A stretch of DNA of 33,603 bases from Actinomycetales bacterium (GTDB lineage: Bacteria > Actinomycetota > Actinomycetes > Actinomycetales > Actinomycetaceae). This document shows, in pieces, positions 4,906-21,165 of the stretch. Each line of letters opens with the position of its first letter. Within the stretch, counting starts at the first letter, position 1. The notes below the pieces were generated by a model. It was not told where the DNA came from, made no database searches, and was given only the letters and a program-made list of their open reading frames with translations. Location: assembly GCA_017882885.1 (NCBI GenBank), contig JADGOQ010000174.1:1-33603 (forward strand), given 5' to 3'. A program made the translations under genes and the position numbers.

Positions 4906-5649
4906 ATGCAGATCGAGATGGTCATGGGCGCCGCCGCGGCGGGCGTCGTCGCGGGGTGGGGAACCAGGCGCGTGGTCGGTGTGGCGCGGGTGCGGCGTTC
5001 GGTGGCCGAGTATCGCGAGCACTGGCGCGAGCTCGCCGAATCCCACGTGGACGGCGGCGGCGCGCTGCGCTATGTGGCGCTCGGTGACTCGGCGGCGCAG
5101 GGTGTGGGGGCGTCGTCGCCGGCGCGGGGTTACGTGCCGATCGTCGCCGACGGCGTCGCGGAGGCGACTGGCCTCGAGGTGGCGCTGTACAACCTCTCGG
5201 TGTCCGGGGCAAAGGCCACCGACCTGCTGGAGGACCAGCTGCCGCGCCTCGCGGAACTGGGCTTCATCCCGGACCTGGTGACCGTGGACATCGGGGGCAA
5301 CGACATCGTGGATCGGCGGATCTCCGTGGCGCGATTCCTCGACACGATGGCCGAGGTACTGGCGGAACTGCCGTCGGGCAGCTTCGTGGCGGACCCCCCG
5401 GGATTCCTGGTCCCGCCCTTCGAGGCGCGTTCGGACGCGATGGCAGTCGGGGTGCGACCGATCATCGGTGAGGCCGGACACCACCTCGTGGCGCTGCACC
5501 GGGCGACGAGGTCTGCCGGGCATCTCGGGTGGGTGCGCAACGTGGCCGCGGACGCCTTCCACCCCAACGACCGGGGCTACGCCGGGTGGGCTGGGGCCTA
5601 CCTGGACAGCTTCGCCGCGGCGCGGTTGGGCACTGTGGTCGCATCCTGA
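4906..5649 (+). CDS. SGNH/GDSL-family hydrolase
   Basis: A 247-residue esterase/lipase-like protein. Block I is YVALGDSAAQGVGA, with the nucleophilic Ser in GDS near residue 61. Block III is VDIGGNDIV, with the oxyanion Asn in GGND. Block V is DAFHPNDRGYAGWA, with the catalytic Asp and His in DxxH. The first ~20 residues (VMGAAAAGVVAGWGTRRVV) are hydrophobic and could be a membrane anchor or uncleaved signal. The ATG at 4906 follows GAGGGGG at good spacing, and TACAGT (4874-4879) is a candidate -10. Physiological substrates of such actinobacterial SGNH proteins are acyl or acetyl esters, but which one is not indicated. Confidence 0.85.
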   Translation: MQIEMVMGAAAAGVVAGWGTRRVVGVARVRRSVAEYREHWRELAESHVDGGGALRYVALGDSAAQGVGASSPARGYVPIVADGVAEATGLEVALYNLSVSGAKATDLLEDQLPRLAELGFIPDLVTVDIGGNDIVDRRISVARFLDTMAEVLAELPSGSFVADPPGFLVPPFEARSDAMAVGVRPIIGEAGHHLVALHRATRSAGHLGWVRNVAADAFHPNDRGYAGWAGAYLDSFAAARLGTVVAS

Positions 5650-5686: not shown

Positions 5687-5705
5687 ATACCCCACGGGGT
5701 ATAGT
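5687..5705 (+). promoter_or_regulatory. CstR/CsoR-like operator overlapping the -10 of the sulfur operon
   Basis: A perfect 16-bp palindrome ATACCCC-AC-GGGGTAT (5687-5702) is followed directly by AGT, so its last three bases form the -10 box TATAGT (5700-5705). GTG of the SQR-like gene is 7 nt further and has no Shine-Dalgarno, so the mRNA is probably leaderless. ATACCCC-N2-GGGGTAT is the form of site used by the CsoR/CstR repressor family, whose CstR branch senses persulfides. A consensus TTGACA at 5660-5665 is too far from TATAGT but could pair with a weaker -10 inside the palindrome. The repressor gene is not in the window. Confidence 0.65.
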
Positions 5706-5712
5706 TCTCTCC

Positions 5713-6963
5713 GTGAACCACAACTTAGTGCGCCGGCTCCTCATCCTCGGAGCCGGGACAGCAGGAACCATCACCGCCAACAAGCTCCGCGCCAAGCTCC
5801 CCAAGTCCGAGTGGGAGATCAAGGTCGTCGCCAAGGACGACATCCACGACTACAAGCCGTCCTACCTCTTCATCCCGTTCGGGATGAACGAGCCCGAGCA
5901 GGCGCGCCGCAGCGCCCACAGCTTCATCGACGACGGCATCATCTTCGAGATGGGTGAAGTCGACGTCGTGCAGCCGGAGGAGAAGAAGGTCGTGCTGGTG
6001 GACGGCCGCGAGCTCCCCTACGACTACCTCGTCATCGCCACGGGCGCGCACCCCCGCCCGGACATGACCGAGGGCAGCCTCTCCGACGAGTGGCACAAGA
6101 CAGTGGGCGAGTTCTACTCGCTCGACGGCGCCATGGCCCTGCGGGAGCAGGCCTTCAAGTGGCGCGGTGGCAAGCTGGTCATGCACATCACCGAGTTCCC
6201 GATCATGTGTCCGGTGGCCCCACTGGAGTTCGTGCTCCTCGCCGACTCCTGGCTGCGCAAGCAGGGCCTCCGCGCGGAGACCGAGATCACCTACGTGACG
6301 CCGCTCGACGGCGCCTTCACCAAGCCGGTCGCCTCGAAGATCCTCGGGGACCTGCTCGAGAAGCGGAACATCAAGGTCGAGGCCGACTTCATGATCGAGC
6401 GCATCGACGCCGAGCAGAAGAAGATCGTCTCCTTCGACGAGCGCGAGATCCCCTTCGACCAGTTGGTCACCGTGCCGCTCAACATGGGCGCCGAATTCGT
6501 GGCGCGCTCCGGTCTCGGGGACGAGCTCAACTTCGTCACCGTGGACAAGCACACGATGCAGCACACCACCCACCCGGAGATCTTCGCCCTCGGCGACGCC
6601 GGGAACCTCCCCACGTCGAAGGCGGGCTCCGTCGCCCACTTCTCGATCGACGTCTTCGTGGAGAACTTCCTCCAGCTCGCCGCGGGCCGCCCGATGACAC
6701 ACAAGTTCGACGGCCACGCCAACTGCTTCATCGAGTCCGGGGACCGCAAGGCACTGCTGCTGGACTTCAACTACGAGACCGAGCCCTACCCCGGTACCTT
6801 CCCGTTCCCGGCCGTAGGCCCGCTGACGCTGCTCGGCGAGTCCCACATGAACCACCTGAGCAAGCTCGCGTTCCGCTGGGTGTACTGGAACCTGCTCCTC
6901 CCGGGCCGCCCGATCCCCCTGCCGCCGGACATGTCCATGGTCGGCAAGAACACCAACGTCTGA
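5713..6963 (+). CDS. Sulfide:quinone oxidoreductase-like FAD/NAD(P)-dependent flavoprotein
   Basis: A 416-residue two-dinucleotide-binding-domain flavoprotein. The FAD Rossmann motif is LLILGAGTAGTITANKL (residues ~9-25), and the ATG motif is YLVIATGAHPRP. The second FAD-contact motif is FALGDAGNLPTSKAGSVAHF. Two cysteines, C166 (PIMCPVAP) and C338 (ANCFIESG), lie where the redox-active pair of SQR and flavocytochrome c sulfide dehydrogenase sits. The C-terminal FRWVYWNLLLPGRPIP is the hydrophobic/amphipathic patch that anchors SQRs to the membrane surface. The expected role is sulfide oxidation to polysulfide or persulfide, passing electrons to the quinone pool. It is first in an operon with a TusE-like carrier and a DsrE2-like protein. 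Start GTG at 5713. It could act on another thiol or persulfide. Confidence 0.85.
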   Translation: MNHNLVRRLLILGAGTAGTITANKLRAKLPKSEWEIKVVAKDDIHDYKPSYLFIPFGMNEPEQARRSAHSFIDDGIIFEMGEVDVVQPEEKKVVLVDGRELPYDYLVIATGAHPRPDMTEGSLSDEWHKTVGEFYSLDGAMALREQAFKWRGGKLVMHITEFPIMCPVAPLEFVLLADSWLRKQGLRAETEITYVTPLDGAFTKPVASKILGDLLEKRNIKVEADFMIERIDAEQKKIVSFDEREIPFDQLVTVPLNMGAEFVARSGLGDELNFVTVDKHTMQHTTHPEIFALGDAGNLPTSKAGSVAHFSIDVFVENFLQLAAGRPMTHKFDGHANCFIESGDRKALLLDFNYETEPYPGTFPFPAVGPLTLLGESHMNHLSKLAFRWVYWNLLLPGRPIPLPPDMSMVGKNTNV

Positions 6964-6992
6964 CACCATCTTCACATCCTGAAAGGACCCCC

Positions 6993-7307
6993 ATGCCCAC
7001 CACCACCATTGCCGGCCACGAGGTCGAGGTCAACGAGGAGGGCTTCCTCACGAAGCCCTCGCAGTGGACCGAGGACCTCGGCACCGCCCTCGCCGGCCTC
7101 ATCGGCATCGAGCTGACCGACGACCACTGGAAGGTCATCAAGTTCCTCCGCTCGGACTACGACGCCATGGGCGAGACCGCCACCCTGCGCCGCGTCTCCA
7201 CCCAGATGGGCCTCCCGGTGAAGCAGCTCTTCACCCTGTTCCCGGGCAAGCCCGCCAAGAAGATGTCCTACGTCGCCGGGCTGCCCAAGCCCAAGGGCTG
7301 CGTCTGA
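6993..7307 (+). CDS. TusE/DsrC/DsvC-family sulfur carrier, single-cysteine form
   Basis: A 104-residue protein with the DsrC/TusE fold signature: FLTKPSQWTEDLGTALA near the N-terminus, LTDDHWKVIKFLRSDYD in the middle, and the conserved swinging C-terminal arm AGLPKPKGCV. The penultimate Cys (C103, 'CysA') is the sulfur-carrying residue of the family. The second cysteine of true DsrC, 11 residues before it, is Ser here (KKMSYVAG), so this protein can carry one persulfide but cannot form the DsrC intramolecular disulfide/trisulfide; this is the TusE-type arrangement. GAAAGGA precedes the ATG. It lies 29 bp after the SQR-like gene and 31 bp before the DsrE2 gene, suggesting it takes sulfur produced by the first enzyme. 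Confidence 0.88.
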   Translation: MPTTTIAGHEVEVNEEGFLTKPSQWTEDLGTALAGLIGIELTDDHWKVIKFLRSDYDAMGETATLRRVSTQMGLPVKQLFTLFPGKPAKKMSYVAGLPKPKGCV

Positions 7308-7338
7308 CCCGCCCATCAGCACACGGATCGGAAACCAT

Positions 7339-7866
7339 ATGACTGACCAGCCTTTTGTCCCCTCCTTCGACGACGACGCCTCCGCCGGCCGCAAACTGGT
7401 GATCATCTGCTCGAAGGGCAACCTCGACATGGCCCTCCCCGGCCTGATCATCGCAAACTCCGCGCTCGGTGAAGGGATCGAGACCCATCTCTTCTTCACC
7501 TTCTGGGGTTTCGACATGATCAACAAGAAGACCATGGGAAACCTGAAGTTCAGCTACTTGGGCAACACCGCGATGCACCTGCCCGGGCAGTTCGGCTTCT
7601 CCATGCCGCAGGGCCTCGCCGCCCTGCCCGGCATGACCGCCGTGACGACGAAGATGATGAACAAGCAGCTCGCCGACCTGGACGTCCCCGGGGTCCCCGA
7701 GTTCCTCGAGATCATCCTCGCGTCCGGCGGCCACCTGTGGGCCTGCAAGATGAGCGCCGACATGGCGAACCTCACCGAGCCGGACCTGTACGAGGGCGTC
7801 GAGGGCATCATCTCGGCGACCGACATGCTCGAGCTCGCCGAGGGCGCTCAGATGCTCTTCATCTGA
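7339..7866 (+). CDS. DsrE/DsrF/DrsH-like (DsrE2-type) sulfur-transfer protein
   Basis: A 175-residue protein. After a short acidic leader comes KLVIICSKGNLDMALPGLII with Cys24, then THLFFTFWGFDMINKK, typical of the DsrE2 group (DrsE_2 domain). Cys136 lies in GGHLWACKMSADM. The strand-loop containing the first Cys and the Met/Gly-rich central helix (GLAALPGMTAVTTKMMNKQ) are as in membrane-associated DsrE2 proteins that exchange persulfide with TusA- or DsrC-type carriers. As the last gene of the SQR-TusE-DsrE2 operon, it is expected to relay or sense sulfane sulfur. Its last 8 bp overlap the 3' end of the convergent CHAD gene. The ribosome site is weak (GGAAA). Confidence 0.85.
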   Translation: MTDQPFVPSFDDDASAGRKLVIICSKGNLDMALPGLIIANSALGEGIETHLFFTFWGFDMINKKTMGNLKFSYLGNTAMHLPGQFGFSMPQGLAALPGMTAVTTKMMNKQLADLDVPGVPEFLEIILASGGHLWACKMSADMANLTEPDLYEGVEGIISATDMLELAEGAQMLFI

Positions 7867-21146: not shown

Positions 21147-21165
21147 AGCATACCCCTAGGGGTAT
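21147..21165 (-). promoter_or_regulatory. Second CstR/CsoR-like operator overlapping a -10 box
   Basis: A perfect palindrome ATACCCC-TA-GGGGTAT (21150-21165) with the same 7-2-7 layout as the site at 5687. On the minus strand its terminal TAT continues as TATGCT (21152-21147), the probable -10 of the membrane-protein gene 32 bp downstream. Only the two central bases differ from the first site. This strongly suggests both are bound by the same CsoR/CstR-type repressor, encoded elsewhere. Confidence 0.65.

Follow-up and report, generated by a model that had tools for sequence, protein, structure and literature searches.

When the bacterial acceptor of the sulfane sulfur produced by SQR is discussed, the usual answer is a small thiol, for instance glutathione, CoA or bacillithiol. 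A locus in which an SQR gene is followed by genes for a TusE/DsrC-family protein and a DsrE2-like protein raises the question as to whether a protein may instead, or in addition, receive this sulfur. The locus (Table 1) lies on contig JADGOQ010000174.1 of an Actinomycetales bacterium (Actinomycetaceae; assembly GCA_017882885.1), the 33,603 nt of which constitute the window analysed here. A preliminary description had proposed that the three proteins form a self-contained route from sulfide to a protein-bound persulfide; re-reading of the sequence found its coordinates, strand, frames and Cys numbers (C166/C338, C103 and C24/C136) all correct. The reading defended below, to which we give a probability of roughly 60%, is that the trio is a sulfide detoxification module induced by sulfane sulfur and operating with protein carriers.

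Table 1. Coordinates of the trio, its persulfide-type cysteines and the associated regulatory elements in the window.
Feature	Position	Strand	Remarks
SQR	5713-6963	+	NF049943 594 bits (cut-off 525); best PDB match human SQOR
TusE/DsrC-family protein, 104 aa, single C-terminal Cys	6993-7307	+	Exceeds the cut-offs of PF04358 (111.6 bits) and TIGR03342 (80.9 bits)
DsrE2-like protein, 175 aa	7339-7866	+	PF13686 104 bits (cut-off 25); below NF047629 cut-off
SQR C166 codon, motif PIMCPVAP	6208-6210	+	Cys in 90/90; aligns with a human SQOR Cys
SQR C338 codon, motif HANC	6724-6726	+	Cys in 90/90; HxxU position of selenoprotein members
TusE C103 (CysA) codon	7299-7301	+	Cys in 90/90; penultimate residue
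DsrE2 C24 codon	7408-7410	+	Cys in 75/90
DsrE2 C136 codon, motif WACK	7744-7746	+	Cys in 88/88 sequences extending this far
Putative CsoR/CstR-type operator, perfect inverted repeat (ATACCCC and GGGGTAT around AC), ATACCCCACGGGGTAT	5687-5702	.	Fits ATACCn6GGTAT
Probable -10 element TATAGT	5700-5705	+	Overlaps right arm of operator; 7 nt before start codon
Second perfect operator, ATACCCCTAGGGGTAT	21150-21165	.	Immediately 5' of a minus-strand gene for a small putative membrane protein

The three genes share a single strand and are separated by 29 bp (SQR to TusE) and 31 bp (TusE to DsrE2); a gene that is SGNH-hydrolase-like by inspection (4906-5649) ends 63 bp before the GTG start codon of SQR, and the 3' neighbour of the DsrE2 gene is convergent. 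The trio is presumably co-transcribed as one unit. By its NF049943 score and its pair of cysteines, the first protein is predicted to be a type III SQR endowed with sulfide:quinone activity. An HxxU motif has been described for NF049943 SQRs (PMC13188914), and the NCBIfam name of this model is "selenoprotein subtype", although the window SQR carries Cys; a selenocysteine reading is ruled out by the Cys codon in the window and by the Cys found in 90 of 90 aligned SQRs, and the name of the model should therefore not be transferred. The TusE protein scores far below the TusE equivalog PRK11508 (61.7 vs 191 bits). Similarly, the third protein does not reach the NCBIfam DsrE2 equivalog NF047629 (102 vs 210 bits) and is therefore labelled "DsrE2-like".

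The trio is a real, widespread and conserved module, found in many actinobacteria and in some other bacteria. Among 59 genomes, every relative above the SQR cut-off has TusE and DsrE2 adjoining SQR in the same arrangement; within the taxonomic order, 10 of 10 relatives do so. A scan of GTDB genomes returned at least 578 stretches encoding SQR relatives; in the best 80 loci, which were fetched, the SQR-TusE-DsrE2 order is intact in 79, the 80th being interrupted by the end of its contig. These loci belong mainly to Actinomycetota, some being labelled Chloroflexota, Verrucomicrobia, Trueperaceae or Aequorivita, and as many of the records are metagenome-assembled genomes, single taxonomic outliers may be binning errors. 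Because a search that starts from SQR is biased by its query, 396 genomes of the phylum were also searched with TusE: 48 gave a match, and among the 30 best loci the top 28 encode SQR, DsrE2 and a single-Cys TusE, the remaining two encoding a two-Cys DsrC and no SQR. The co-occurrence of the trio in other genomes, on which the preliminary description had staked its proposal, is thus borne out by each of these samples.

Conservation of the cysteines was assessed in an alignment of 90 sequences. Both SQR cysteines are invariant, C338 also aligns with a Cys of human SQOR, and HANC is the sole HxxC motif of the window SQR. C103 of TusE is equally invariant; the position of the second cysteine of DsrC (CysB, residue 92) is occupied by Ser in the window and by Ala, Ser or Thr in all 90 sequences, so that the trio TusE lacks the second Cys that defines a dissimilatory DsrC. 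The expectation that the persulfide-type cysteines would be conserved among orthologues consequently holds for C166, C338, C103 and, in DsrE2, C136, and fails for C24, which is dispensable, being replaced in 15 of the 90 sequences.

A clue to the sulfur acceptor comes from natural gene fusions. In two loci of the window's family (L005, L006) and in one of Propionibacteriaceae (L075), SQR and TusE form a single open frame joined by a Pro-rich linker. Modelled with AlphaFold2 (mean pLDDT 85), the L006 fusion shows confident SQR and TusE domains connected by a linker, residues 404-471, with pLDDT below 50, and its SQR part matches human SQOR with a TM-score of 0.89 by the target's length. As such tethering through a flexible linker is found in three lineages, a direct hand-over of sulfur from SQR to TusE is the best reading of the module. 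Long Pro-rich C-terminal tails are also present on the SQRs of L052, L057, L076, L097 and L098, ending in peptides such as PIIPKF or PIVPDF. In 57 of 80 loci, DsrE2 begins with this same short motif (FVPSF in the window, 7339-7380), which may be a docking peptide common to both proteins.

Upstream of SQR, the operator-like repeat lies over the probable -10 element. A promoter scan at the SQR start found no sigma-70 pair, the -10 assignment being based on layout alone, and both congeners display the same layout (TATATT, 7 nt, start codon). The position of the operator over the -10 box, together with the 7-nt gap to the GTG kept in both congeners, suggests a likely leaderless mRNA repressed by occlusion of the -10 element. 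The repeat looks like a known site for a persulfide-responsive repressor, as in Streptomyces coelicolor an ATACCn6GGTAT site 5' of a PDO-rhodanese gene is occupied by ScCsoR, which is released upon persulfidation (PMC7533328). Chance is rejected as an explanation of the repeat: the window's genome contains eight ATACCN6GGTAT sites and none of the reversed control pattern. An exact TACCCN(1-8)GGGTA occurs within 300 bp 5' of SQR in 21 of 91 loci, whereas the 80 fetched loci, 1.15 Mb in total, contain 27 occurrences altogether, which amounts to a strong enrichment at SQR. Its absence from most relatives, and the different regulator found 5' of SQR in 17 loci, count against the reading defended here.

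In three congeneric genomes, the operator precedes not only the trio but also genes for a PDO-rhodanese, a thioredoxin, a small membrane protein and a CstR-like member of the CsoR family; a rhodanese lipoprotein gene is added to this list in two of the three, and the window's genome has one more site, 5' of a gene whose thioredoxin reductase-like product includes a thioredoxin part. The CstR-like paralogue (PF02583; L150, 4235-4492) has the sensing cysteines, lacks the copper His ligand and stands behind the same operator, as it does in both congeners. The small putative membrane protein behind the second operator of the window has no Pfam match, and gene and site are kept in both congeners. 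The route is thus self-contained only locally, the conserved operator linking the trio to the PDO-rhodanese, the rhodanese lipoprotein, the thioredoxin and the CstR-like gene elsewhere in the genome. The operon was correctly described as devoid of dsrAB, and no NIR_SIR (sulfite reductase) domain was found in the window's genome, which is 92.6% complete; the reported lack of rhodanese and PDO genes is true of the operon and not of the genome. The sharing of one operator by these genes argues for a role in sulfide/persulfide homeostasis rather than in tRNA thiolation or respiration.

Put together, these elements suggest the following cycle, in which we infer all of the chemistry, the sequence of carriers (first TusE, next DsrE2), the final acceptor and the identity of the repressor. 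Upon a rise of sulfane sulfur (persulfide, polysulfide), the trio would be freed from a CsoR/CstR-type repressor. SQR would oxidise sulfide with quinone, and C166 and C338 would keep the resulting sulfane sulfur between them until it is taken over, instead of or besides a small thiol, by C103 on the flexible C-terminus of TusE acting as a swinging arm; in the three lineages with fusions, TusE is covalently tied to SQR. TusE would then exchange sulfur with C136 of DsrE2, which would buffer it and pass it onward, the most likely recipients being the co-regulated PDO-rhodanese, which would yield sulfite, or else thioredoxin and low-molecular-weight thiols. A relay from sulfide to a protein persulfide, as initially proposed, is likely and well supported by the conservation of the trio, the invariant cysteines and the natural SQR-TusE fusions.

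The flow of sulfur between the two carriers could run the other way, with DsrE2 gathering sulfane sulfur elsewhere, from rhodanese and TusA-domain proteins, and loading TusE, SQR being one donor among several. Transfer from DsrEFH to DsrC is known in Allochromatium (cited in PMC13047784), and a corresponding transfer from DsrE2 to TusE would reverse the assumed order; a protein with TusA and DsrE2 domains at its end is encoded about 8 kb from the trio in the congeners. On the other hand, TusE is fused to SQR and never to DsrE2 in the fusions observed, and a TusA match is absent in 15 of 36 trio genomes searched, which makes this direction of flow rather unlikely. The congeneric gene (L160, 1996-4494, and its L161 counterpart) encodes a protein of about 830 aa with a TusA domain, followed in L160 by a DsrE2 domain, and lies 5' of the trio. 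No TusA was found in the window's genome, and the corresponding position lies outside this contig, past its left end; a claim that the relay of this genome is TusA-free was consequently dropped. An assembly gap may likewise explain why TusA, a partner expected if the trio supplied tRNA 2-thiouridylation in the classical role of TusE, has no match there. The family name and the E. coli TusE, a single-Cys relay protein, speak for such a role, but the unreached PRK11508 equivalog (62 vs 191 bits), the strict linkage of TusE to SQR and its fusion to SQR render it highly improbable.

Equally little credence can be given to a reading in which TusE does not carry sulfur but is a subunit of SQR with a structural or membrane-anchoring function. 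DUF1641 is reportedly a partner of type III SQR that binds the membrane, and in 23 loci a DUF1641 gene separates SQR from TusE (e.g., L103, 9258-10004), although the window's genome yielded none; yet C103 is invariant (90/90) even though much of TusE varies. The regulatory evidence bears on a further, improbable reading, whereby the trio belongs to a copper CsoR regulon guarding copper- or thiol-stressed cells, with sulfide as a secondary substrate. In the same genome, a near-identical site precedes the genes for a copper-type CsoR, CopZ and CopA, and an N6 site is found 5' of SHOCT and multicopper oxidase genes, so that the CsoR/CstR-type repressor proposed for the trio is identified with less than certainty. 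However, the sites of the CopA type have a spacing of 7, whereas those of the trio, PDO-rhodanese, rhodanese, thioredoxin and CstR-like genes have a spacing of 6, and copper control of the trio is therefore less likely; besides, the second CsoR paralogue is devoid of the copper His ligand position. As the spacing-6 operator is found 5' of the SHOCT and multicopper oxidase genes of this genome (C125; L151, 4346-6138), copper and persulfide regulons may overlap.

The trio can be compared with several described systems. The closest known case is the SQR/TusA/DsrE2 operon of Methylacidiphilum, in which TusA stands where the window has TusE: in M. fumariolicum SolV, MFUM_v2_0219-21 (type III SQR, TusA, DsrE2) are about 1.7-fold up with H2S and have been proposed to serve H2S oxidation (PMC10205796). 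In both operons, a type III SQR and DsrE2 are thus accompanied by a small sulfur carrier, which is TusA in one and TusE in the other. Five genomes of Methylacidiphilum's phylum, probably of the Methylacidiphilum type, have a DsrE2-like gene beside SQR, with TusA in between in the three that were read fully (order DsrE2-TusA-SQR; SQR 34-39% identical). Eight other genomes of this phylum carry SQR, TusE and DsrE2, with SQRs 57-60% identical to the actinobacterial set. TusA-type and TusE-type operons, both present in one phylum, therefore represent the same module with two alternative carriers. In the literature searched, SQR, TusE and DsrE2 are brought together in a paper on Thiocapsa.

The cst operon of Staphylococcus aureus comprises CstR, TauE, CstA, CstB and SQR (PMC5480029; for CstA also PMC9918477) and likewise subjects SQR, PDO-rhodanese and carrier domains to control by a persulfide sensor of the CsoR family, which for the window is predicted from sequence. 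There, however, the parts form one operon and CstA is a fused rhodanese-TusA-DsrE protein, whereas in the window they are dispersed and the carrier belongs to the DsrC family. The ScCsoR circuit of S. coelicolor (PDO-rhodanese, rhodanese, sulfite transporter; PMC7533328) shares the operator consensus and has a regulon that also includes genes for a PDO-rhodanese and a rhodanese but, unlike the window, has no SQR and no TusE/DsrE2. As in the Dsr relay TusA-DsrEFH-DsrC of Allochromatium vinosum, DsrE-type and DsrC-type proteins would exchange persulfide; the window differs in that no sulfite reductase domain was found in its genome, in its single-Cys TusE in place of a two-Cys DsrC and in the tie of the carrier to SQR.

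Beside sulfite reductase and tRNA thiolation, the DsrC/TusE family could thus have a third role, as a dedicated and sometimes tethered SQR persulfide acceptor outside the Dsr pathway, evolutionarily interchangeable with TusA; the odds of this broader proposal appear about even. Through the SQR module, single-Cys TusE proteins outside tRNA thiolation would gain a function, and the way in which common actinobacteria (Nocardioides, Phycicoccus, Cellulosimicrobium, Demequina) oxidise sulfide would be linked to persulfide sensing. A protein acceptor that is fused to the oxidase in several lineages also makes the SQR acceptor question directly testable. The neighbours of the trio show that regulators differ among its relatives: a gene for an HTH_17-PocR regulator lies directly 5' of SQR in 17 loci (e.g., L103, 7250-7975), and L039, L040, L041 and L046 have genes for a CstR-like CsoR and for a DUF302 protein near the trio.
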